From NCBI RefSeq assembly GCF_002753895.1, contig NZ_NJER01000002.1:496001-560000 (forward strand): a stretch of DNA of 64,000 nucleotides. Direction: 5' to 3'. A program made the translations under genes and the position numbers. Below are positions 51,180 through 64,000 of this stretch, piece by piece. Position 1 is the first letter of the stretch. Every line of letters starts with the position of its first letter. The notes below the pieces were generated by a model. The model made no database searches. It worked only from the letters and a program-made list of their open reading frames with translations, and had not been told where the DNA came from. This stretch comes from Halobacteriovorax sp. JY17. GTDB taxonomy: Bacteria; Bdellovibrionota; Bacteriovoracia; Bacteriovoracales; Bacteriovoracaceae.

Positions 51180-51782
51180 ATGGAAAATGTTGATAATCCA
51201 AATTCATTAAAAATATCTAAAAGAAAACTTCGAGGAAGAGAGCTCTTTGCAACTCTTCCAAACTCTAGTTTGGAAGAAGGATTATCTAAAACGGCAAATG
51301 AATCTCTAGTAAAAGAATCAGCAATTAGTGTCCAGGAAGAGACTATTGAAGGGTTGAGTAGTGATATTAGCCAACTTGAAGAAATTAGAGAAAAAGAACT
51401 AGCATACTCAATGAAGCTTAAGAATAAAATTCAAGAAAATAAAGAGCAAATTGAAATTTTGCAATTCAAATTTGATAAAATTAAAGAAAGTTATATAAAT
51501 CTTGAAAAAGTTAATCAAGATTATCAGAAAGAACTTATTGTTCTTGAGGCCACTAGATCTAAGAAAGAAAGTAGTTTAAGATTGCTTGAAAATCAGCACA
51601 AGGACTTGAGTGCATCTATCATATCGCTTCGAAATAGAAAAAGAAAAATAACTGATGAAAAGAATAATATTAGTTTGAAACTAGTAAAAGAAGAGAAGTC
51701 CGTACAGAAACTGATGCTTGTTATTGATGAGGATGAAGAGCAAAATGTCTTAAGTTTCCTTCCTCCTGTTCCTGGATTATAG
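51180..51782 (+). CDS. Coiled-coil protein of unknown function
   Basis: A 200-residue protein with an N-terminal stretch of low order (LKISKRKLRGRELFATLPNSSLEEG) followed by long heptad-like coils from about residue 55 to 185 and the tail NVLSFLPPVPGL. No membrane segment or signal. It is 53 bases from the rsh stop and 80 bases before a larger coiled-coil gene with the same character, so the two may act together. No ribosome site is near the ATG; the TAGAAT box (51168-51173) suggests it may be leaderless. Function unknown. Confidence 0.65.
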   Translation: MENVDNPNSLKISKRKLRGRELFATLPNSSLEEGLSKTANESLVKESAISVQEETIEGLSSDISQLEEIREKELAYSMKLKNKIQENKEQIEILQFKFDKIKESYINLEKVNQDYQKELIVLEATRSKKESSLRLLENQHKDLSASIISLRNRKRKITDEKNNISLKLVKEEKSVQKLMLVIDEDEEQNVLSFLPPVPGL

Positions 51783-51862: not shown

Positions 51863-54187
51863 GTGTATAAACTCGTTTTCTTGAGAGAAGAAATGAAAAG
51901 TATAAAAATTATTGTAGCTAAGAAATGTCTCGATTCAATTATGAAGTCTCACCTTGACTCGAGGGAGAAAGAAGCTCAACGGAGAGTGGTTGGCCTACAG
52001 GGAAAGGATAGACTAACTGAAACGTATAGAGCTATTTCTAGTGATATTGTATCTCTCAGGGAAGAAATCAATAAATTACTTACGAGTAATAATAATTTAA
52101 GAGAAGCAAACTTTAGTTTAGAAGGAAAGGTAAATAGAGTATTTGATCAACTAATTGTTGAAAATAAAAAGCTGGAAGTAGAGAAAGAAAGTTCAAGAAC
52201 CTTAAGCAGTAGAGAAGCTGAGCTCATTCGAGAAAAGGCTAATGTTGAAAATGAAATTAAAAAAATAACTAATGAAAGATCAGATCTTTTAGATTTAAAA
52301 AGACAACTTGAGAGCAATATTAAAACTATCGAAGAAGAAACAAAAGAGCTTGAAAAGCATTCTTTAACCATTCAAAAAGATAGCAATTTTGCAAGAGAGA
52401 CTTTTAATAAAGTAGAAAGTCGCTTCGAACAGAAAAGAACAATACTGGAAGTGAAAAGAAAAGAAAGAGAAGCTCAGAATCTATACCTATCTGAAATTGA
52501 AAAGGAATTAGCATCTCTTGAAAGTCGGTATGAAGAAATAGAGGATCAGTCAGTAGAAGCCAAGCTTGATCTTGAAAGAATTATCGAATCACAAGAGAAA
52601 GTCTCCAGTGATTTAAAAGCAATCAAAATCGACGCTTTGAAGGTTGAGGTGGAGATTGAAGATTGTTTAGAATTGATTTCAAACCAAAGTAAGAAAGAAG
52701 AAAATTTAAAGAGCGAATATTTAAAAAATAAAAATGATCTTGAAGAAAGAAGAGAGACTCTAAGAGCGGATAGAGAAAAACTAGATGATGTGAAAAAAAT
52801 AGTCGAAGAAAAAAATAGTGAACTGTCACAGCTTCAGGTTGAGCTTGAAGGGTTGAAAGCTGACGGAGTTAAAGTTAATAATGATCTTAGAAAAAAACGA
52901 AAAGAGCTTGAAGAAGTTGAGAATGCCAAGACGTTGTTAGTTTCCAAAATAAATGATCAAGATAAATTCATTAGGGTACTGAAGGAAGAATCTTCTAAAG
53001 TTTTAAGTGAAGTTGAAAATACTCAGGAGATATATAATTCTAAGCTTGAAAAGTATGAGGAAAATGAAAAACTCTTGATTGACCTTCGTAAAATTAAGGA
53101 TTGCGCTAGATCGAAAATAGAAAAAGAGAAGCAATCATTAGAGAAGATGGAAGTAAGGGGCTTGAAGACCTCTAGAGCGATTGAAAGCTTAGAGCAGGAG
53201 AATATTCTATTAGAGGGGAAGTTAGATTCACTGAGAAATACTAAAATATCATTGGAGACAAAAGTTCATAGTGTTACGGCGAGCTATGAAGAAGAGAGAG
53301 CTCAAAAATCAAAGAATCAGAAAGATATAACTATTTATGAAATAGAGATCGCTGAACTTAAGTCATCATTAAAATCAATAGAAGAGCAAAGGAATGCTTT
53401 TCAAGAGGAATATGAAAGAACTTGTGATGAATTGAATTCTTCAGTTTATTCTGTTGATATGATTAAAAATAGTATTGAAGAGAGAAAAGCTGATGTTGAA
53501 TGCTTACAGCAAAGGACTAATGGGGCAGAAGAAGAAATTAAGTTGAAAGAGAATGAGTTGAAAAGAATGAAGAGAGATCATTGTTCAACAGAAATTAGCC
53601 TTAAAGAGATGGAAGAGAATTACGGTAAAGTTGAGAAGGACTTAGTCGCACTTGAGAAAAGTGTGGAGAGAGAAGCTGGAAAATATAAAAATATAAAGAA
53701 TATCTATGTAGAAAAGAAGAGAATGTTTGAAAAGGCTCAAGAGCGAAAGACGTCTCTAGATAAGCTTCTTTCGAGGACTCGGAAAGTTGTAGTGACTGCA
53801 AATGACACTATTGTTGAGTTGCAAGAGCGAAACAATGCTGTCCTTGCCGAAAATGAAGCTAATGCCAAAGTTTATTCTGAAATGAATAAATCTCTAGCAA
53901 GGAAAAAGAGAGAGTTTAAAAATCTTACAGAAGAAAGTGAAGCTAATAACTTAAGAAAGCAAGAGCTTGAAATTAAGAATAAGAAAGTGAGAGAAGAGCT
54001 TGCTGAAATTGATGTTTATCTCGCTGTTGAGAAGACAAAGACCTCTAGGAATAACGATACTTCTAAGCTTGAAAAAAATAATGGCGAGCTTAGAAGAGAA
54101 TTAGAGCGAAAAGAGAGAGAGCTTGCTGACTTGATAGAGTCTCGTGGACCTCAGAAAGTGATTAGAAGAAAATCTGGAATATGTTAA
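51863..54187 (+). CDS. Long coiled-coil protein of unknown function
   Basis: A 774-residue protein that is almost wholly coiled coil from residue about 50 to 765 (repeated E/K/L heptads such as NNLREANFSLEGKVNRVFDQL), with low complexity and no membrane or enzymatic domain, and a short positive tail (KVIRRKSGIC). It is long enough to span a large distance in the cytoplasm. The start GTG at 51863 has AGAGGA 9 bases upstream; ATG at 51893 is an alternative. It is convergent with the minus-strand Mot operon. SMC- or CcrP-like structural roles are possible but unproved. Confidence 0.65.
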   Translation: MYKLVFLREEMKSIKIIVAKKCLDSIMKSHLDSREKEAQRRVVGLQGKDRLTETYRAISSDIVSLREEINKLLTSNNNLREANFSLEGKVNRVFDQLIVENKKLEVEKESSRTLSSREAELIREKANVENEIKKITNERSDLLDLKRQLESNIKTIEEETKELEKHSLTIQKDSNFARETFNKVESRFEQKRTILEVKRKEREAQNLYLSEIEKELASLESRYEEIEDQSVEAKLDLERIIESQEKVSSDLKAIKIDALKVEVEIEDCLELISNQSKKEENLKSEYLKNKNDLEERRETLRADREKLDDVKKIVEEKNSELSQLQVELEGLKADGVKVNNDLRKKRKELEEVENAKTLLVSKINDQDKFIRVLKEESSKVLSEVENTQEIYNSKLEKYEENEKLLIDLRKIKDCARSKIEKEKQSLEKMEVRGLKTSRAIESLEQENILLEGKLDSLRNTKISLETKVHSVTASYEEERAQKSKNQKDITIYEIEIAELKSSLKSIEEQRNAFQEEYERTCDELNSSVYSVDMIKNSIEERKADVECLQQRTNGAEEEIKLKENELKRMKRDHCSTEISLKEMEENYGKVEKDLVALEKSVEREAGKYKNIKNIYVEKKRMFEKAQERKTSLDKLLSRTRKVVVTANDTIVELQERNNAVLAENEANAKVYSEMNKSLARKKREFKNLTEESEANNLRKQELEIKNKKVREELAEIDVYLAVEKTKTSRNNDTSKLEKNNGELRRELERKERELADLIESRGPQKVIRRKSGIC

Positions 54188-54212
54188 AAAAAGGACCTTT
54201 TAAAGGTCCTTT
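54186..54212 (-). terminator. Terminator of the Mot operon
   Basis: AAAGGACC and GGTCCTTT form an 8-base stem with a 7-base loop; on the minus strand it is followed by TTTTT. The stop codon of the last gene lies in the loop. Confidence 0.8.
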
Positions 54213-55765
54213 GGAAGCTTGTCTATCCCTCTTAGGCAGTCAAGAGATAAGAGTTGAGAAGTTATAATATAGGTTTTCCACTCGTGATTTGGTCTAAAAC
54301 TTTTTGATAATTTAAAAGATTCCTCGCACCTCTTGGAGAATACTAAGTTTTTAAGTCGTCTTAGATCAACCATTTCTTTTTCATTCTCTGTTGTGTTCTT
54401 GTTGATTTTCTTTGCTTCTGAGTCAAGATAGGTTTTGGCGTCATCTCTTAAATAGTTCCAGTGACTTTGTACTTCCGAAGTTAGGTCGTAGCTTCCATCT
54501 TTAAAGTTAATGTTCCAAATTGTGTGCATGATGTCTAGTTTTTCTCCAGTGAGATTTCGAGGAATCCAGTATCTATCAATTTTATTCTTGTAAATAGTAA
54601 GAGTTTTTTCAAATAAGTTTGAAAAGTTTTTAACTGTAAGAGAATTTCGAAGTAGCGGAAATGTAATTGCTAAGGCATCAGATTCATTCATTGCAATATT
54701 CTGTAGCAATGAGAGCCTTGAGTCTTCTCTATTTGTTTTTAAGATGACAAAGAGAAGTAATACCACAATCGCGCCTATCTTTATGAAATCTAAAAAGGAG
54801 GAGAGGAAGGCCGTGAAGACAATTTTCTTCTTTTGGGTATTGAGAATGTCAATCTTATCAAGCTTGTTTAGTTGGTTGAGAGTTCCATCTGTAGACATTG
54901 TCTCAAGTTTGTTAATTTTGCTTAAGTATTCCAAGCTGGCAAGATTTTCAAGTTTATTAAGACTTTCAAGTTTAGATAGGTGATCAAGTTTTGATAATTC
55001 TCCTAATTCTTTTAACCCATCAATCTTGTCTAAATTTGATAAATTCTCTAGTCGATCTAGATATTGTAGGTCTTTTAAATTATCTAGTCCTCGTAGTTGA
55101 TTTAGGGATTCAAGATGATCTAATTTTTCTAGATTATTAAGTAAGTCTAGCTTTTGAAGATTTTGTAGGTCATTACCTTTTTCCTTTAGGATTTGTAAGA
55201 AGGAGTCCAGGCGGTCTAGTTCTTTTAAGTTTTCTAGTTTCTTTAATTCTGTAAGATCATCTAACTTGTTAAGAGATTTAAGTTCATCAAGCTTATTTAA
55301 TGAGGTTAGGTTATCAAGTTTAGAAAGGATCTCTAACTTTTCAAGCTTAGAGAGAGAGTCTAGTCTATCTAGTGATTTTAAGTTATCTAGCTCTTTAAGT
55401 TTTGATACATTACTTTCAAAATGTCTATTTACAAGTTCAAGATTCTTTAAAAGGTCAAGCTTATCTAAGGAGCTCAAATATTCTAGATTAGTTAAATCTT
55501 TTAAGTTATCAAGTTTTGTGAGCTTCGATAAGCTTTCTAATTGCGTAAGTTGAGAAAGGGATTGCAAGTTGTTTAACTTCTCAAGATTGTCGAGAGAAGA
55601 CAGTTTACTCAATTCTCGTAATTCATCAAGCATCGAAAGGTTTTTAATAAGACCTGAGTCAATTAAATTATTTAATTTTGTGATTTGATCTACGAGATAG
55701 TCAGTACTCGAAAGATTAGGGTCTTTAATAACATCTTGATTTTCTGAGATCTCTGTATTACTCAT
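54200..55765 (-). CDS. Leucine-triplet (L-x-x)n rod protein with a transmembrane helix, last gene of the Mot operon
   Basis: The N-terminal part is a striking repeat: a Leu (sometimes Ile, Val, Phe or Met) falls at every third residue. I count unbroken blocks at residues 43-112 (24 triplets), 123-192 (24) and 200-290 (31), plus 296-308 (5), 84 triplets in all. Example: LDNLKSLDRLDSLSKLEKL. A strict period of three does not fit a normal coiled coil (3.5) or LRR; it is the pattern expected of hexad-type alpha/beta coiled coils. A basic stretch QKKK is followed by a membrane helix (about 326-342, KIGAIVVLLLFVIL) and a 180-residue C-terminal domain with two cysteines, probably periplasmic. Overlaps the 187-residue gene by 8 bases. 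Confidence 0.75.
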   Translation of the reverse strand: MSNTEISENQDVIKDPNLSSTDYLVDQITKLNNLIDSGLIKNLSMLDELRELSKLSSLDNLEKLNNLQSLSQLTQLESLSKLTKLDNLKDLTNLEYLSSLDKLDLLKNLELVNRHFESNVSKLKELDNLKSLDRLDSLSKLEKLEILSKLDNLTSLNKLDELKSLNKLDDLTELKKLENLKELDRLDSFLQILKEKGNDLQNLQKLDLLNNLEKLDHLESLNQLRGLDNLKDLQYLDRLENLSNLDKIDGLKELGELSKLDHLSKLESLNKLENLASLEYLSKINKLETMSTDGTLNQLNKLDKIDILNTQKKKIVFTAFLSSFLDFIKIGAIVVLLLFVILKTNREDSRLSLLQNIAMNESDALAITFPLLRNSLTVKNFSNLFEKTLTIYKNKIDRYWIPRNLTGEKLDIMHTIWNINFKDGSYDLTSEVQSHWNYLRDDAKTYLDSEAKKINKNTTENEKEMVDLRRLKNLVFSKRCEESFKLSKSFRPNHEWKTYIITSQLLSLDCLRGIDKLPKDL

Positions 55766-56321
55766 TTTTGGCCCTTGTTAAACTAATTTTATAGGTTAGG
55801 AATTTATTTATTTCTTTCTTTGTTTGTGTTGAAAGGGTCTCATTTGTTTCATTCTTATACCTCATTACTTTGTTTTGAGAAGAAGTAAGATCTCTTTGTA
55901 ATGAGTATTTAATGATAGGAAGTATAGTAACTTGAAAGAAGTGAAGACGATCAGTTTGAAGATAAAAAGAATTTAAATTATCAAGAATTAAATTCCAGTT
56001 CTTTGTGTACTGATAAAAATTCGATTCTACCTCTCCGCTTATTCTTGTTGATCTATTCATGATTTCATTGTTTGTATTGATAATATGATAAATCATGATA
56101 GGGGTGGCTTCTGAAAAAATATTACCAATTTTCTTTTGAAAGCAATAAAGTTCTGTCTCATTATTCAGTTGGCAAAGACTTTCTGTGTTTCCACTCTTAA
56201 AAAGCTTTAATTCTTTTGGATTATTGATGTCGTTGAAATTTAGTTCATATAGAATAGCTAAGACAATAAAAATTGAAAAAATACTGAAGAATTTTATTAT
56301 CTTAAATATGGAGCTATTCAT
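55758..56321 (-). CDS. Bitopic membrane protein of the Mot operon, unknown family
   Basis: A 187-residue protein with one N-terminal membrane helix (ISSIF-like hydrophobic run, about residues 8-26: IIKFFSIFSIFIVLAILYEL) and a helical domain that should lie in the periplasm, with two close cysteines (CQLNNETELYC). No family is recognised. It overlaps the MotB end by 8 bases and the leucine-triplet start by 8 bases, so all four genes are translationally linked. It may link the motor to the rod protein or to the outer layers. Confidence 0.7.
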   Translation of the reverse strand: MNSSIFKIIKFFSIFSIFIVLAILYELNFNDINNPKELKLFKSGNTESLCQLNNETELYCFQKKIGNIFSEATPIMIYHIINTNNEIMNRSTRISGEVESNFYQYTKNWNLILDNLNSFYLQTDRLHFFQVTILPIIKYSLQRDLTSSQNKVMRYKNETNETLSTQTKKEINKFLTYKISLTRAKNE

Positions 56322-57027
56322 CTAAGTAGACTCCAAGACCTAATTTTATTTTCTTCTGTCCTTCATTAACTGGTTTAGCCACTTTTATTACAACTCTTCT
56401 GTTTTGAAGAATATTCCTCATGATTGGTTGACCTTTGTCGTCAGTATTCTCTGCCACAGGTTTTGATTCACCTTTTGAGATTGCTACTAAATTCTTTGCA
56501 GAGAAACCTAGGTATTCAAATCTTTCTAAGACTTTACTTGCTCTTATGGCCGCAAGTTCCCAAGAGGAAGTAACACTCTTGTTCTTTCTATGCTCAAATG
56601 GATCACTATGTCCTTCAATGATAACTTGATAGTTCGCATTCTTAGTTCTGATGATATCGACGAGCGTATCTAAAGAATCTACAAGTTCTTTTGGAAGTTT
56701 TGTTTGCCCCTCTGGAAATAAAACACTTCCTGAAAAAGTAATTGCAAGTTCAGAATTATTTAAAGTTATTTTAGACATTTTTTTAAGTGTAGGGTGGCGA
56801 GCAATTTCCTCATTGATTTCATTGAGCTTAATGTCAGAGCTTTTCCACTTTCCCTTGTTGAAACTTTTTGATAGCTCCTCTGCTTTTTGATTAAAGCCTA
56901 CGGGATCGAAATTAGCAAAGGCCATCATGAGTATAAAGAAACACGCAATAAGTGTCATCATGTCGGCGTAACTTACTAGCCAACCTGAACTATCATCTTC
57001 AGCTTGTTCTTCTTGAAAATCTTGCAT
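56314..57027 (-). CDS. motB: MotB-like stator subunit (OmpA peptidoglycan-binding domain)
   Basis: A 237-residue protein. The membrane segment VSYADMMTLIACFFILMMAF holds the proton-carrying Asp at residue 22. A plug-like linker leads to an OmpA domain that grips peptidoglycan (VIIEGHSDPF ... WELAAIRASKVLERF ... GESKPV ... NRRVVI). All key features of a MotB are intact. It follows motA by 8 bases. The usual role is to form the ion channel with MotA and anchor it; here it is part of a four-gene operon and may drive something other than the flagellum. Confidence 0.9.
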   Translation of the reverse strand: MQDFQEEQAEDDSSGWLVSYADMMTLIACFFILMMAFANFDPVGFNQKAEELSKSFNKGKWKSSDIKLNEINEEIARHPTLKKMSKITLNNSELAITFSGSVLFPEGQTKLPKELVDSLDTLVDIIRTKNANYQVIIEGHSDPFEHRKNKSVTSSWELAAIRASKVLERFEYLGFSAKNLVAISKGESKPVAENTDDKGQPIMRNILQNRRVVIKVAKPVNEGQKKIKLGLGVYLDE

Positions 57028-57035
57028 ATCTTTCC

Positions 57036-57818
57036 TTAGGCTACAGTTTTCCAGTCAAGTCTATCTTTCGGGTCTAGGTATGAATTCAGATCTTCAGCAA
57101 CAAATATAGGATTTGATTTCAACATTATATGTTTTATACCTTCAAGAATAATTTTATCTTTAGTATTCATTTGTCGTTGGATTTCTTCAAGGTTTTCAGA
57201 TATTGGAATAAAGACTAGGTTTGCAATAATAACTCCATAGAGTGTCGTAATAAGACAAACTCCCATGGCCGGACCAATGGTTTTCATAGCATCTGCTCCA
57301 CTTAAGTTTGCAAGGAGAACAACCATACCAATAGTTGTTCCCATCATTCCAAATGCTGGTGGGAATTTTCCAAGTGCCTTAATCTTTCTTGTTTGTTCTG
57401 ATCTAATATAGGCCATCTGTTTTGCTCTTTTTTCAAGAACTTCGACGAGGGCAACCTTATCTAAAATTCCATCTGAAATAAGAGAAATACCCTCTTCAAG
57501 AAATTCATCTGATGCTTTTGAAGAGATTGATTCTAAAGATTCACCTCCTCTTAGTGCTGAACATATACTCATAACATTCTCGATGAGTTTTGTGTTATCA
57601 ACCATTTTACCCATTAAGAAGTTTCTAAAAAATATTTTAAAAATAGCTCCTAATTTATTGAGCTGAAAGGCAATGCAGGTCGCTGCAAAAGTTCCCCCGA
57701 TAACAATAAATAAACTTGGTCCATCAAAGAAGATTTTAAGATTGTCAGAGGACATTTTTAAGCCTGCCATGAGCACGACAGTGGCGATAATTAGTCCAAT
57801 TAAAGAGAAAATATTCAT
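57036..57818 (-). CDS. motA: MotA-like stator subunit
   Basis: A 260-residue four-helix protein: the start MNIFSLIGLIIATVVLMAG, the SLFIVIGGTFAATCIAF helix, the cytoplasmic loop with charged residues (SEQTRKIKALGKFPPAF), then GMMGTTIGMVVLL and PAMGVCLITTLYGVIIANLVF. The conserved prolines and glycine-rich helix of flagellar MotA are present. Size is that of a standard MotA, with no long ZorA-like tail. It is the first gene of the minus-strand operon. No FliA promoter could be found upstream. Confidence 0.92.
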   Translation of the reverse strand: MNIFSLIGLIIATVVLMAGLKMSSDNLKIFFDGPSLFIVIGGTFAATCIAFQLNKLGAIFKIFFRNFLMGKMVDNTKLIENVMSICSALRGGESLESISSKASDEFLEEGISLISDGILDKVALVEVLEKRAKQMAYIRSEQTRKIKALGKFPPAFGMMGTTIGMVVLLANLSGADAMKTIGPAMGVCLITTLYGVIIANLVFIPISENLEEIQRQMNTKDKIILEGIKHIMLKSNPIFVAEDLNSYLDPKDRLDWKTVA

Positions 57819-57922
57819 AGATTTTAGTTCCTTCTTAAACTTTAAATTAGTTATTTAACTACGTTTCAAATTATATTTTATTGGACATTTTACTTACTGC
57901 AACTAGCGGAAAATATTAACTA

Positions 57923-58036
57923 TTGCCTATTGTTTGACTCAAATAGTTGCCTATTGGGGTTGGGAGTGTCGTAAGGTTCGTGGGGTAAGCACAAGGAATA
58001 TTTATCCATCTTAAGAAAATTAACACAAAGTGTTAA
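57923..58036 (+). promoter_or_regulatory. Repeated and palindromic elements before the giant lipoprotein gene
   Basis: In the 292-base gap between motA and the giant lipoprotein gene, TTGCCTATTG occurs at 57923-57932 and 57947-57956 (24-base spacing). A 7-base inverted repeat TTAACAC-aaa-GTGTTAA lies at 58020-58036. These look like regulator sites for either gene. The rest of the gap is AT-rich with no gene. Confidence 0.35.
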
Positions 58037-58110
58037 GATTGTCAGACACTTTAACGAAAAGTTATTGAGAATTATATTGCGCGAAATATCTTTCATTTAA
58101 AGGATTAATT

Positions 58111-61100
58111 TTGAAGAATTTCTTATCACTATTTCTTTCTATCTGCGTTGCCTCCTGTGTGGGGACGGTAGATGACAAAAATTTAGATACGACTAAGACA
58201 GCTATCTCCACAGAGAAGAAGCTAGATTTTAATGGTATTGTAGATGCTCAGGCAATTTCTGATTCTAGAGTTGCCGTATTCTTTAATGCTGTTGCAGGTG
58301 ACCCAGCTGATTTTTCTTACCAAATTGTTGTTAATAATTCTCAAAATCCAATTAATGTCAGAGGAGATAGTTTAGAAGTAAATTCAGCAGGGCAATATAC
58401 CTATATTGTAACAGATCTCTCTCCAGCAACTAAGTATGCATTCAATGTTAACGTAAGTGGTGCAGATGGTTCTAGTGGGGAAGGTTCACTAAATATTTAT
58501 GCGACGACGTTTTCTAATAAGACGTGCGACTTTGAAGGGGTTTCTTCTGTTGATGTTCCTGCAGGTTCTGGAGGAAAAACATCCTTGGTTGTACGCTGGG
58601 TCCCTGCGGTTACAAGATCTACAAGTGTGGTTTATAAGAATATTCAAGATCCTTATAAGTATGTCATTTATAAAATTGATGCTTATGGAGGATCTGGAAA
58701 TCTTTTTAATGACTCTTACAACAGTCCTGATAAAGAGGTTGTTGAAATTCCTGCAGGTGGAACAACAGAGTATCGTTTTCCTGGTCTCGATTCTGGAAAG
58801 AAGTATTACTTTGGAGTTAGATGTCTTCATGAAGGATATAAATCAAATCCATCATTATTAGTTGAGAAGAACTTAAAAATTATTTCTCAAACAACGAGGG
58901 ATAATACAGCTATTTTTGATTGGCAACCAACAAGTGTGAATATTATTACTCCGAGTGGGAAAAATGGTGAGAAGAGTAGAATCTTTACTTGGGAATCAGC
59001 GGCGGGTGATTTCTTTAATTATAGATTGTACTACCAAGGTTATACAACTGACCCTTCTCTTGTTCCTGATCCATTTACCGATGTAACTTTGGCCGACCCA
59101 GAATCAAAGATATATAGAACAATTAATGCTGAAGATGTTTCTTATGAATTGAATTTAACAGATGGAGATAAGTATAAGTATTATCATATGAAGCTTATAG
59201 CATGTGCTACATCTCAGTGCTTAAGTGGTCAAAGAATTGGTATTGATTCGACTTATTTAATTACGAAGCAAATAATTCCTAAAATTGCTCCTTTTCAAGG
59301 GATCCAGAAAATAGAAAACCCAAAATCTGCTACGGCTGTTGATTCTATTTGGATTAAAGCTGAAGCGCCTGCGATGACGGAAGGACATGCTCATAGGTTA
59401 AATCTTTATTGCTTAAAGGATGGTGCTGACAAGTCTACTAGGTTCTTAAAAAGAGCGGATGGAACTTTTGGAACTGGTGCTGACGATAGAGGAAGTTGTG
59501 CAGATCTTACAGTTGCTGGAACAGTTCCAGCAACAGAAGCTCAACTCTATGCCTTTACGGAGCTGGAGATTAGTGGAGCTAAAACGGATGGAACAACTTA
59601 TTGCTTAATGATGGTACCTGTTTTAGAAAATATAACACCAGCATATTACTATGAAGATATTGGTGGTGCCTCTATAAGATGTATTACACCTGAAATTGTT
59701 ACTCCAAAAATTTATGAGTTTGCAGGAAAAGATTCTTGTAGTCTCATTGGATCAAGTAGTTCTCAGTTGGATGTTAACTGGTCTCAGCCTGGGGGGGGGA
59801 TTTATAGTGGATACTATGTTTACTATAAGGATGAAGAAGTAGGAACTAAGTTTAATTTTGCTGCAGCTCTTCAAGCACAAGAAGATGTAGACGATTCTGA
59901 ATATTTTACACCAGTTGATATCGCAAACCGGACAACGTATACAAGTCGACTTTCTAATCTCATCCCAGGGCATTCTTATGAGATTGGAGTTCTGACATAT
60001 GTTGATGTTGGTGGTGTAAAAAAGTTTTCAGAAGGAAACCTAAATACCTATTCTTGTACTGTTCCAATTCCTGAATACTCATTTCAAGAGTGGACAGGTG
60101 TAATGGCCCTCGGTCCTAAAACAAATGAGCTCTATCCAAAGAATATGAATGCATACTTTGTTCAAGAGTCATTAGATGCAATGAATAGACCATTTGAAGT
60201 TTTAATGAAGGAGATAGGAACTCCTGCTGACTTTGATGAAGAAGCTGCCGATTCAACACCAACTTTTGGACTAGATAATGAATATGTAAAGACAGATCTC
60301 TACGGCAGTGCAAGTGAGTTCAATGGTACTTATGGTTCAACAACAAATTCTGAATTCATGAGTACTGCTTTAAAATATTCAAATACAGGGGTTATTAAAT
60401 TCGCTTTTAAAGACGTCTTGATAAATATTGATGGAACAAGTGTAAATCTTTCCGATTATGCTATTAATACCATAGGACTTCCTGCTGCGAAGAAAGATAG
60501 AAAGTATGGTTATAAAATCTTAAGATCAGAAGATAATGGAACTTCTTGGGTTGATATTACGAAGGGGAATTTTGCATATCAGAATGCAACGAATGAAGGA
60601 CTTGTTGTCGCTTCAAATATTCCTAAGGTTAGGCCTCATGCGGGAGAGGATTTACCGGCTGGTAATGAATGGATTATTAACTTTACGGACTATTCAGTAA
60701 AAGCTGAGAAATTATCATCGACTTATACTGAGAGAGCGAGAATCTATCAGTATAAAGTTGTTCCTATTTTTGATGGGAAAGAGTTAACGATGGTATCATC
60801 TTCCAATAATCCTACTCATAATATTATTAAGATTACTCTTCCGCCGCCGAATATGGCACTTGTTCATAGATGGATGGCGAATAGAACTTGGTGTCGTGAG
60901 ATCGGAAGAAATCCAAATACTGCTGAAGGTGTAAACTACTCTTGCTCTTATTCTGGGCTTGGCTCTCAGGGGGTAACTCTTCCATGGAGACTAGGACAGA
61001 CTGTTATTGACTTGGGAGGAGATTTACTTGTTGATAGATTTGAGCTTGGTTGTGGATTTTCAAGAGGAGATACTACTCAAGATCAGTCTTTAAATAAGAG

Positions 61101-63270
61101 TTCGTTTTCAGGTTCTCAATTAGACTTTGAAGGATTGAATGATCTTACTAGTCCGAGTGAGTTTAAAGGTTGTTATTACGATGAAGGCAGTGCTGCCTCT
61201 GATAATAATTTAGCTTCTCAGTTTAGTCGAGAGAATGGTGGGCAAACAGGTTCGAGATATTCTCAAATGGTAAGAGGAGACTGTCTTGGTGACGGGAAGA
61301 ATCTAGTTATTCCAAGAGAGTATTGTGATTCACCGATTAAATCTTTTGATGAAAACGTTTATTACCCAGGAAATGTTAATACGCCGGGAAGTTGTTCGAC
61401 AGTTACTCATGCTGGAGATGGAGGAACAACCGCTTATAACTATGAAGAAAATAGTGTGCAGAGTCTATTTGCTTCAGTTTTCTATCAACGTTCTAAATAT
61501 TCTTCTAGGCACTATGGTTTAGTAAATCCTCATTATACAGCACCAGACAGTGCAAGACTTACCATAAATGGTGATGGGTTTATGAATAACTGTATGATTA
61601 ATCTCCCTTATATAAATGGATCTGGAAAGTATAGACCTAGATGGTTTGGTACTTCGGCCTTAATGTCGGGAGTTAGAAATTCAATCACAGCTGTAAATAG
61701 TATTCTCTATAATAAAACGGTAGGTGAAGTTCTTGCGAATACAAATCTCTACAATTTATCTGATGTCGCCGCCCCTTCTCTTCCTGAGGGGATGAATTCA
61801 GATACTCCAATGGGAAGAGTCTTTTCAAGCAATGGGTCAGGGCTTCCTCCATTGGATGGAATGGATCAGGAGGATACTCATAACCTTTGCAGTACGTTTA
61901 ATGTGGAAGTTGGGATAAAGGTTGGGAGTGACCCTTTTGCTTCCTTTGGGCAGAAAAAACCTAAGAGACTTTTAAGAAGAAAAGAATTTATTGCATCCTC
62001 TGCTTGGAGTGAATCCTTGGCCGCAAGAAATACTGCAAGTCCTTATAACGATGCGTCTAATGACGGTACAATTCTTCAAATTGAAGCTGAAGAATGCAAT
62101 AGTAATTATAAAGGAGTCGATGCTGTTAGTGGTGGAGCTGACTATAATCAAATTGGAGAAGATATAAGGTCTAATTTTGGTTTTGTTGGAGCTACTTCGA
62201 CTCGAGTACCACTTCTTACTGGAAGTGGTGTAAGTACGGGAGTAAATAGCAGTTCTGCAAAGTGTGTTAGTAAGTATGGAATTCAAGATTTAGTTGGAAA
62301 TGTTGTAGAAAGTGTAAGTGATCAACTCTTTTGTTTTACTGGTGAAAGAATAATGTTCAATAAGACAAGTGCTGGCTTAGGTTCAGGTGATGCAGAGTGG
62401 ACAGAGTATCCAGGATCTAGTTTTATAGAAGAAAATGAGTTTAACTCTCTCTTTCAGACTCCTTTTCTCGATACGATAAATACTGGAAGGTGTTCAGTTA
62501 ATGAAGAAGGTGCGTCGAGAGCTTATGATGCATTAATTCCTGGTTCAAGTATCATTAATTCTATATTTACTGAGATAGGTTCAACTACAGTAAATCCTTT
62601 AGTTGTTCCAAAAGTAAAAAACTTTGATATTGAATCTCTTAATCAGGCAAGAAATGGAGATGGAAGCTTCTTAGACTTTGGAAATGATAGACTAGGTCCT
62701 AATTTGTCTAATTCTAATAATTTAAGTTCCGGAGGATACTTTAGTCATCTGCTGGGGCTACCTCTCTCCTGCTCGGGGACAGCTTGTAATGACTCTCTTG
62801 ATAATGAAGTCATAAATATTGATGCAGCATTTGATACATCCGGAAGAACGCTCTCGTCAGTGAATGATGTTTCATTTGCAGATGGAATGATTTACAAATT
62901 CTCTCTTGGGAATTCTAGATTTACTAATTCGGGTACATTAGATGTTAGTGTTGAGACTAGAACTTTTGACCCTGCGACTATGGAAGATAATCAATCTTTT
63001 AATTATATTACAGACCTAGACTATAGTGGGGGAACTTGGACTGCAACAACTGCTGATGCAAAAGATAATGGAGGAGTTGTGGTGGCGAAGAGATCTCTTT
63101 TCTCAATTCCAAGAAGTGGAGCAGTACTCTCTATTCCTTCTGGCGGAAGCGTTTATGAGCAAAAAAGTGGTAGGTATACGGCAAATATTAAAAGAGTTAG
63201 TGGAAATATTAAGAGAGTTCTAAGTTCTGGAATGGCCGGGAGATGCTCTATTTTAATCAATGAAAATTAA
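58111..63270 (+). CDS. Giant lipoprotein with fibronectin-III repeats and FGE/SUMF1-like C-terminal region
   Basis: 1719 residues with a lipoprotein signal (LSICVASC, Cys 16). Residues about 30-1000 hold several fibronectin-III-like domains (for example YTYIVTDLSPATKYAFNVNVSGADG). The later region has the look of a formylglycine-generating-enzyme/SUMF1 type domain (VDRFELGCGF, then YGIQDLVGNVVES, like the family's DMxGNVWEW), probably without FGE activity. It is rich in cysteines. The start codon is TTG with AAAGGA upstream. It is a surface or periplasmic structural or adhesive protein. A second lipoprotein gene follows 38 bases after the stop. Confidence 0.75.
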   Translation: MKNFLSLFLSICVASCVGTVDDKNLDTTKTAISTEKKLDFNGIVDAQAISDSRVAVFFNAVAGDPADFSYQIVVNNSQNPINVRGDSLEVNSAGQYTYIVTDLSPATKYAFNVNVSGADGSSGEGSLNIYATTFSNKTCDFEGVSSVDVPAGSGGKTSLVVRWVPAVTRSTSVVYKNIQDPYKYVIYKIDAYGGSGNLFNDSYNSPDKEVVEIPAGGTTEYRFPGLDSGKKYYFGVRCLHEGYKSNPSLLVEKNLKIISQTTRDNTAIFDWQPTSVNIITPSGKNGEKSRIFTWESAAGDFFNYRLYYQGYTTDPSLVPDPFTDVTLADPESKIYRTINAEDVSYELNLTDGDKYKYYHMKLIACATSQCLSGQRIGIDSTYLITKQIIPKIAPFQGIQKIENPKSATAVDSIWIKAEAPAMTEGHAHRLNLYCLKDGADKSTRFLKRADGTFGTGADDRGSCADLTVAGTVPATEAQLYAFTELEISGAKTDGTTYCLMMVPVLENITPAYYYEDIGGASIRCITPEIVTPKIYEFAGKDSCSLIGSSSSQLDVNWSQPGGGIYSGYYVYYKDEEVGTKFNFAAALQAQEDVDDSEYFTPVDIANRTTYTSRLSNLIPGHSYEIGVLTYVDVGGVKKFSEGNLNTYSCTVPIPEYSFQEWTGVMALGPKTNELYPKNMNAYFVQESLDAMNRPFEVLMKEIGTPADFDEEAADSTPTFGLDNEYVKTDLYGSASEFNGTYGSTTNSEFMSTALKYSNTGVIKFAFKDVLINIDGTSVNLSDYAINTIGLPAAKKDRKYGYKILRSEDNGTSWVDITKGNFAYQNATNEGLVVASNIPKVRPHAGEDLPAGNEWIINFTDYSVKAEKLSSTYTERARIYQYKVVPIFDGKELTMVSSSNNPTHNIIKITLPPPNMALVHRWMANRTWCREIGRNPNTAEGVNYSCSYSGLGSQGVTLPWRLGQTVIDLGGDLLVDRFELGCGFSRGDTTQDQSLNKSSFSGSQLDFEGLNDLTSPSEFKGCYYDEGSAASDNNLASQFSRENGGQTGSRYSQMVRGDCLGDGKNLVIPREYCDSPIKSFDENVYYPGNVNTPGSCSTVTHAGDGGTTAYNYEENSVQSLFASVFYQRSKYSSRHYGLVNPHYTAPDSARLTINGDGFMNNCMINLPYINGSGKYRPRWFGTSALMSGVRNSITAVNSILYNKTVGEVLANTNLYNLSDVAAPSLPEGMNSDTPMGRVFSSNGSGLPPLDGMDQEDTHNLCSTFNVEVGIKVGSDPFASFGQKKPKRLLRRKEFIASSAWSESLAARNTASPYNDASNDGTILQIEAEECNSNYKGVDAVSGGADYNQIGEDIRSNFGFVGATSTRVPLLTGSGVSTGVNSSSAKCVSKYGIQDLVGNVVESVSDQLFCFTGERIMFNKTSAGLGSGDAEWTEYPGSSFIEENEFNSLFQTPFLDTINTGRCSVNEEGASRAYDALIPGSSIINSIFTEIGSTTVNPLVVPKVKNFDIESLNQARNGDGSFLDFGNDRLGPNLSNSNNLSSGGYFSHLLGLPLSCSGTACNDSLDNEVINIDAAFDTSGRTLSSVNDVSFADGMIYKFSLGNSRFTNSGTLDVSVETRTFDPATMEDNQSFNYITDLDYSGGTWTATTADAKDNGGVVVAKRSLFSIPRSGAVLSIPSGGSVYEQKSGRYTANIKRVSGNIKRVLSSGMAGRCSILINEN

Positions 63271-63308
63271 ATAAAAAATTAAATAAAGAATTAAATTGGA
63301 CGTTAGTG

Positions 63309-64000
63309 ATGAAATTCTTAAATTTTAAAATTTTTAAAAAGCAAAGCTTTCTATTGCAGATTCTTTGCCTCTTTGTTTTGGTTTCCTGTAATGGAGCAGG
63401 TGAATCTGGCGATGGGGTGACTATTCGCACCGGTGAAATCTTTAATAAAGCGAAGGTTTCGGTTGATAAACCTCTTGAGATTGGAGATATTATCACCGGT
63501 AGTGAAGCTGTTAAATATCTTATTACAATTAGAAACGATTCAAATTTTGAGTACACAGATATTGGTGTTGATTTTAAAGTCAATGGAGATGGCTTTAGTT
63601 ATAGTAAAGACGAAGAAGGAGCCGATAATGGATTTCCTGGATACGGTGGAACATGTGGTAAGAAACTTTCTAGTAAATCAACCTGCTTAATTCGTTTAGA
63701 GTACTCTCCTCTTAGATCAGGTGAATTTGAATTTCCTTTCGTTGTAACATTCAAAAACCTTGTTGATGTTGAAAAGTATGACTTTAAAATCACTGCCACA
63801 GCAGGACTTCCTGCAAACTTAGTTTTTGAATCAGGGACAACTGTAAATAGTCTTGGACCAACAGAGCAGACGGATTCAAGTGTGAGATCAGCGCTCTTTA
63901 TCGTAAAAAACACCGGTGGTTTAAGTGCTAAGAATATTAGTATTGAACTTATTGAGGATATTCCAAACTCAGAGAAGGGATACTCTCTAAATAATATAGA
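63309..64000 (+). CDS. Lipoprotein with Ig-like (Hydin/DUF1573-type) beta-sandwich repeats, cut at the window end
   Basis: Reading from ATG 63309 the frame stays open to the end of the window (230 codons). The N-terminus is a lipoprotein signal (LCLFVLVSC). The first domain reads YLITIRNDSNFEYTDIGVDFKV ... GTCGKKLSSKSTCLIRLEYSPLRSGEFEF, the 'C-x-S-C-x-I/L-x-V-x-F/Y-x-P' pattern of choice-of-anchor-D/Hydin-like domains; a second one starts near 63810 (ALFIVKNTGGLSAKNISIEL). It follows the giant lipoprotein by 38 bases on the same strand and is likely to be cotranscribed. Confidence 0.75.
   Translation, partial: MKFLNFKIFKKQSFLLQILCLFVLVSCNGAGESGDGVTIRTGEIFNKAKVSVDKPLEIGDIITGSEAVKYLITIRNDSNFEYTDIGVDFKVNGDGFSYSKDEEGADNGFPGYGGTCGKKLSSKSTCLIRLEYSPLRSGEFEFPFVVTFKNLVDVEKYDFKITATAGLPANLVFESGTTVNSLGPTEQTDSSVRSALFIVKNTGGLSAKNISIELIEDIPNSEKGYSLNNI

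Follow-up and report, generated by a model that had tools for sequence, protein, structure and literature searches.

A flagellar-type stator operon linked to a FliF-FliG fusion protein: candidate parts of a non-flagellar rotary machine in Halobacteriovorax and its relatives

We analyzed a 64,000-nucleotide stretch of the Halobacteriovorax sp. JY17 genome (contig NZ_NJER01000002.1, positions 496,001 to 560,000), hereafter the window, which carries an operon of four genes encoding the stator pair MotA2/MotB2 and two additional membrane proteins that we call Bit and Rod. These four genes are probably the stator half of a non-flagellar but flagellum-derived rotary machine, which would span the cell envelope and move surface proteins during gliding or prey contact. 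An earlier note on this DNA overlooked the decisive partner of the stator, a FliF-FliG fusion protein (FliGL) encoded 18 kb from motA2 and outside the window, alongside lipoproteins and outer-membrane proteins. On balance, we lean toward a more general reading, in which a flagellar stator and a fused rotor serve as a self-contained engine driving giant FN3/Ig lipoproteins across the Bdellovibrionota, the rotor being tuned or anchored in some lineages by a Leu-x-x membrane protein. We found no description of such a machine in the open-access literature (subscription papers fell outside that search), and it is apparently previously undescribed, in predatory bacteria.

A flagellar-type stator linked to a fused rotor protein

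The operon had been described in the earlier note as encoding MotA, MotB, a bitopic protein and a leucine-triplet protein, and all four open reading frames are indeed intact, in the same direction and where they had been placed (Table 1). The complete stator pair with additional membrane partners also stands, since Pfam recognizes MotA2 and MotB2 (MotA_ExbB 3e-16, MotB_plug 2e-13 and OmpA 3e-12), Bit and Rod having no confident Pfam family. As for its class, MotA2 is closer to flagellar stators than to ExbB/TolQ, with NCBIfam scores of 1e-43 for PomA versus 0.035 for TolQ, and it matches solved MotA/PomA structures at 3e-36. Key residues are kept. The position of R90, which contacts the rotor in Escherichia coli MotA, is occupied by Arg or Lys in 31 of 33 MotA2 proteins, while the ion-binding Asp22 of MotB2, within a YAD motif, is kept in 32 of 32, and the plug and OmpA domain are present.

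The window genome (3.47 Mb, labeled G000) encodes two MotA proteins in all, the window copy and a canonical one, which are 32% identical. The canonical motAB genes are separate from the cluster described here, and canonical FliF and FliG are encoded side by side elsewhere (L309). The window pair is therefore probably no ordinary flagellar stator, as had been proposed. In a survey of 129 genomes of the family (Bacteriovoracaceae/Halobacteriovoraceae in public records), scored with a MotA2 profile, the scores split with a clear gap between MotA2 (at least ~285 bits, 46 genomes) and other MotA proteins (at most ~217 bits). MotA2 is thus a distinct MotA group by sequence.

FliGL has a FliF RBM3 domain, followed by a transmembrane segment and a full-length FliG, a layout seen with both profile and fold. 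When its profile is compared with solved structures, FliF M-ring proteins rank first (E 0.018 at best), and two of these matches lie in two colinear stretches that correspond to the RBM3 region and to the tail that meets FliG in FliF. Compared with 1265 independent proteins, the same profile aligns along 280 residues with FliF from other bacteria (E 1e-5 to 2e-5) and along 150 residues with FliG (E 3e-4), in the order that a fusion would show. The model of FliGL from McBI.35 (L201), which has a pLDDT of 74, rising to near 90 in the FliG part, extends these similarities to the fold. Its residues 24-189 resemble FliF RBM3 (Z 11.3, root mean square deviation 3.4, 97 aligned residues), its residues 306-611 resemble full-length FliG with N, M and C domains (Z 9.9, ~275 aligned), and the top seven Foldseek matches are all FliG. 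Where FliG R281 and D289 of the torque helix would fall according to an alignment-based mapping, FliGL appears to keep a charge pair, with Lys in 14 of 18 and Asp or Glu in 18 of 18 proteins. In three genomes of other families (G043, G050 and G057), the gene upstream of MotA encodes a protein of 740-799 residues that matches FliG directly (FliG_C 5.6e-10 in G043; FliG profile about 1e-9). It is the combination of profile, fold and these bridging families that argues for homology of FliGL to FliG, and sequence and modeling together indicate a natural FliF-FliG fusion. In this divergent version from other families of the phylum, possibly the machine in its ancestral state, MotA-MotB is preceded by the FliG-matching membrane protein (L301 2616-4838, L303 7544-9898, L304 5545-7944) and a PEGA-like protein.

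MotA2 and FliGL occur together. Among the family genomes, 45 have both, 82 have neither and each is found alone in a single genome (Fisher 1.7e-32, a P value that ignores relatedness). Presence is patchy inside the genus too, since G000 and G004 have both, whereas G001-G003 have neither and nevertheless encode flagellar FliG and a flagellar-type MotA. Across the phylum, FliGL is present in 66 of 368 genomes, at 72 loci. At 57 loci, FliGL and MotA2 are on one contig, always within 20 kb of each other and in 43 cases within 5 kb, and 19 of the 57 belong to six other families, at distances of 593 to 6788 bases. The remaining 15 are either on a different contig from MotA2 in a fragmented assembly or in genomes with no listed MotA2.

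The two proteins belong to a divergent cluster of ~24 kb, which is conserved across the eight genomes compared (as stitched regions) and is bordered by genes that are not. MotA-MotB-Bit-Rod form one direction, while the opposite half begins in the window and extends 14 kb beyond it. This half encodes, in order, an FN3 lipoprotein (1719 residues), an Ig lipoprotein (1971), a second FN3 lipoprotein (640), a barrel-like protein (449), two proteins of no assigned type (178 and 497), another barrel-like protein (205), a PEGA/TPR protein (200) and FliGL (714). The three large proteins open with lipoprotein-type signal sequences (VASC, LVSC and LTSC), and cluster proteins match OMP_b-brl, TPR and PEGA weakly. 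Homologues of the 1719-residue protein are found near MotAB2 in six other genomes, the same cluster families recur on 33 named contigs bearing MotA2, and many MotAB2 loci adjoin a PEGA/TPR protein and a membrane protein of 600-770 residues with an MgtE_N-like signal, which is FliGL.

Table 1. Positions of the operon, its parts and the divergent genes (window coordinates, unless preceded by genome and contig)
Feature	Position	Strand	Remarks
motA2 (stator A subunit, PomA/MotA type)	57036..57818	-	260 residues; Pfam, NCBIfam
motB2 (stator B subunit, plug and OmpA peptidoglycan-binding domain)	56314..57027	-	237 residues; Asp22 in YAD motif
Bit (single-pass, predicted periplasmic helical domain)	55758..56321	-	187 residues; C50, C60, P74 invariant
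Rod (N-terminal Leu-x-x arrays, one transmembrane segment, C-terminal domain)	54200..55765	-	521 residues
Leu-x-x triplet arrays of Rod	54836..55648	-	residues 40-310; runs of 25, 25, 31 and 5 triplets
Rod transmembrane segment	54737..54796	-	~residues 324-343; invariant D326, K329; alignment
Rod C-terminal domain, predicted periplasmic	54203..54736	-	~180 residues; basis of Rod family profile A2
Intergenic region between divergent halves of the cluster	57819..58110	.	
Predicted FN3 lipoprotein, first gene of divergent half	58111..63270	+	1719 residues; Pfam fn3 7e-17
Predicted lipoprotein with Ig-like domains (start)	63306..64000, on to G000:C2:565221	+	1971 residues; HYDIN-like Ig 3e-6
FliGL	G000:C2:571905-574049		714 residues; found by FliGL search; outside window

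Bit and Rod, the additional membrane proteins

The earlier note had expected the last two genes to be kept beside motAB in relatives, which is true of Bit and only in part of Rod. A Bit profile gives strong matches in 12 genomes, in all of which Bit immediately follows MotB2 wherever the contig permits checking, and weak matches at other loci in two more. Bit has a single N-terminal transmembrane segment, two invariant Cys (C50 and C60, ~10 residues apart) and an invariant Pro (P74). The Cys pair, combined with the N-terminal transmembrane segment, suggests a periplasmic disulfide. A comparison with known families found nothing. Bit has a precedent in MotE/MotK, the stator cofactors of Cereibacter (PMC10954123). 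It resembles these small periplasmic partners of MotB in alphaproteobacteria in size (MotE) and predicted location, but no sequence relation was found, and Bit is membrane-anchored and has a Cys pair. Bit thus looks like a lineage-specific, Cys-paired partner of MotB2. Since its gene follows motB2, it would most likely sit on MotB2 as a periplasmic cofactor with a role like that of MotE/MotK.

As for Rod, its name reflects a guessed shape, the protein being a single-pass membrane protein with arrays N-terminal of the transmembrane segment. In these arrays, hydrophobic residues are exactly three apart in uninterrupted runs of 25, 25 and 31 triplets, against a longest run of 12 among 10,000 shuffled versions of that region. 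The periodicity is at the protein level, and a tandem repeat in the DNA was rejected. One homologue from another genome has a single run of 95 triplets, and array length varies among relatives (209 residues in G007, 309 in G013 and 460 in G035). By our own reasoning, an ordinary coiled coil is rejected as well, because an exact three-residue period would turn the Leu stripe by ~60 degrees per triplet on an α-helix. No known fold was found for the arrays. Matches to solved structures of leucine-rich repeat proteins are weak (E 0.001-0.02), Pfam gives no leucine-rich repeat match, and the triplet pattern comes without the LxLxxN strand. The AlphaFold model, with a mean pLDDT of 38, is of low confidence and contains a helix at residues 310-343. 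As part of the general reading introduced above, and with the same leaning, we regard this triplet-repeat membrane protein as a new kind, with a period unlike that of ordinary coiled coils. Rod has no PHROG match, and a phage origin was rejected. Its match to a PADLOC type II methyltransferase model (4e-21) reflects low-complexity Leu rather than enzyme homology, an indication that similar triplet arrays occur in unrelated proteins. Three relatives of the Rod C-terminal domain lack Leu triplets and have an acidic, low-complexity N-terminal part instead (L146 2358-4196, L147 4747-6573, L148 4646-6421).

The distribution of Rod is uneven. The profile of its C-terminal domain finds it in 17 of the 129 family genomes, 14 of which have MotA2 (Fisher 3e-5). 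It is the fourth gene, in the order of the window, in G000, G013 and G082, but is absent from the close relatives G004 and G015, which have MotA2-MotB2-Bit. In genus g24 (G117, G123, G131 and G132; also G118), it is divergent beside MotA2, in G106 it lies two genes away from a PEGA-TPR/FliGL pair, and in genus g4 no MotA2 lies close to it. This uneven presence at MotA2 loci marks Rod as an optional part, so far as gene content tells. With a membrane anchor and such gene neighbors, Rod would most likely be a membrane-anchored cytoplasmic scaffold or spacer, found only in some lineages, an assignment in which we have low confidence. In G117, G131 and G132, Rod is directly followed by the gene for a FliG-only protein of 355 residues, which lacks any FliF part and is divergent from MotAB2 (L141 5919-6986, L142 5294-6361, L144 3156-4226), the full fusion being encoded elsewhere in the same genomes. 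A search of solved structures with this short protein returned noise. In this one genus, Rod may stand in for the membrane anchor beside the FliG-only protein.

A proposed trans-envelope machine and its alternatives

The linkage of MotA2 and FliGL, with separate and ordinary flagellar FliF, FliG and MotAB encoded in the window genome, leads us to propose that a stator and a rotor were recruited into a non-flagellar machine. In this machine, MotA2/MotB2 would be the ion-driven stator, and the OmpA domain of MotB2 would fix it to the peptidoglycan. The stator would turn a ring of FliGL subunits, with the FliF RBM3 domain in the periplasm, the transmembrane segment in the membrane and FliG in the cytoplasm. 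From the ring, torque would be transmitted by way of the PEGA/TPR protein in the periplasm and the barrels in the outer membrane to the giant FN3/Ig lipoproteins at the cell surface, which would exert force on a substrate or a prey cell. Moving surface adhesins in gliding or prey contact is the most likely job. We prefer gliding because the cluster reaches the cell surface and because the phylum has a known but unexplained form of gliding that uses neither flagella nor pili (PMC13104615). According to a 2026 review, no gliding machinery has been identified in Bdellovibrio, and to find the motor, the adhesins and the way in which force is transmitted is a major open challenge (PMC13104615).

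Several observations weigh against this proposal. Gliding is not directly evidenced in these organisms, and, rather than being points of force, the lipoproteins and barrels might be cargo or clients. E. coli MotA E98 has no exact counterpart in the window MotA2, which has E93 and E96 nearby. For the RBM3 part of FliGL, OsmC-like folds score within ~2 Z units of the FliF match, and direct similarity of FliGL to FliG is weak (HHalign against a shallow FliG alignment, probability 5%, E 0.008). Finally, FliGL occurs with no listed MotA2 in two genomes from outside the family, and MotA2 occurs without FliGL in G129.

MotAB2 might instead be an additional stator for the ordinary flagellum, with Bit and Rod as accessory motor proteins like MotE/MotK in Cereibacter (PMC10954123). 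The flagellar type of MotA2, the retention of R90 and of the MotB Asp, and a Bit protein that is of the size of a MotE-like cofactor and likewise predicted to be periplasmic would all fit, and several MotAB pairs are common in Bdellovibrionota. We nevertheless judge this quite improbable, since MotA2 tracks the FliF-FliG fusion almost perfectly, adjoins the fusion gene rather than flagellar genes, and is missing along with FliGL from G001-G003, which keep flagellar FliG and a flagellar-type MotA. Another explanation is that the motor energizes a transport or outer-membrane maintenance system, which moves or exports giant lipoproteins or other cargo and is no motility machine. The absence of any recognized secretion ATPase, channel or export gene among the scanned genes makes this unlikely, as does a FliG-type rotor, which implies ring rotation and not TonB-like pulling. 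It does draw on the outer-membrane barrels and predicted lipoproteins of the cluster, whose adhesive function is putative, and on type 9 secretion, where one rotary motor serves both secretion and motility.

The earlier note had also raised Zorya-type phage defense, in which case the tail of ZorA would here have become a protein of its own. MotB2 does match ZorB models (5e-15), as expected of any MotB with an OmpA domain. However, MotA2, at 260 residues, matches no ZorA model, none of the nine neighbors scanned (the two largest lipoproteins were left out) matches ZorC, ZorD or ZorE, and Rod, which has its own transmembrane segment, is missing from most MotAB2 loci. We therefore reject this idea, which has become extremely improbable. 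In common with Zorya, the system has a MotB-type B subunit with an OmpA domain, but it has no ZorA tail domain, and its conserved neighbors are envelope proteins.

The proposed rotary machine can be compared with three other systems. It shares with the flagellar motor homologous MotA, MotB, FliG and FliF RBM3 domain, and the predicted topology of these parts is the same. Here, however, a single protein combines the FliF and FliG parts, the cluster has no recognized FliM/FliN, export apparatus, rod, hook or filament, and the linked genes encode a PEGA/TPR protein, outer-membrane barrels and giant lipoproteins. Agl-Glt of Myxococcus and its Bdellovibrio homologues likewise form a trans-envelope system with a stator of the proton-driven family, a periplasmic TPR protein and outer-membrane barrels (PMC3169522). 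AglRQS is of the ExbBD/TolQR type, with no FliG-like rotor described, in contrast to the flagellar-type stator and dedicated rotor found here. The type 9 secretion/gliding motor of Bacteroidota (GldLM) resembles the proposed logic of a rotary motor with surface adhesins, but no relative of GldLM or GldKN is recognized here, no direct search having been made for them. In its proposed mode of working, the machine resembles a flagellar motor core, and it stands outside the flagellum, Agl-Glt (which differs in motor class) and Zorya. With motor, rotor, periplasmic link, outer-membrane parts and surface proteins co-encoded, the cluster offers a concrete and testable candidate for a gliding or prey-contact motor in related predators. 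If the proposal is true, a flagellar motor core of stator and rotor works apart from export, hook and filament, which bears on the evolution of such machines.

Gene layout and neighboring genes

Within the operon, motA2 and motB2 are separated by 8 nt, and motB2/bit and bit/rod overlap by 8 nt each. These short distances in a four-gene unit make translational coupling of the overlapping motB2, bit and rod genes plausible. Promoter-like matches between the divergent halves are no more frequent than expected by chance, the promoter/terminator scan being uninformative. On the other side, two long coiled-coil proteins of 200 (51180-51782) and 774 (51863-54187) residues are encoded convergently with Rod. 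They are probably outside the cluster, because their homologues are absent from the seven other regions compared.

Besides flagellar FliG, the window genome encodes small FliG_C-only proteins (~145 residues) and one of 371 residues (G000:C1:1207331, G000:C2:231018 and G000:C1:1298778), and most family genomes have several such FliG_C-domain proteins. A protein of ~500 residues with a periplasmic region, a transmembrane segment and a PAS-like look, but no Pfam match, recurs near the cluster (G000:C2:569199-570692, L141 7657-9189) and is a possible sensor.

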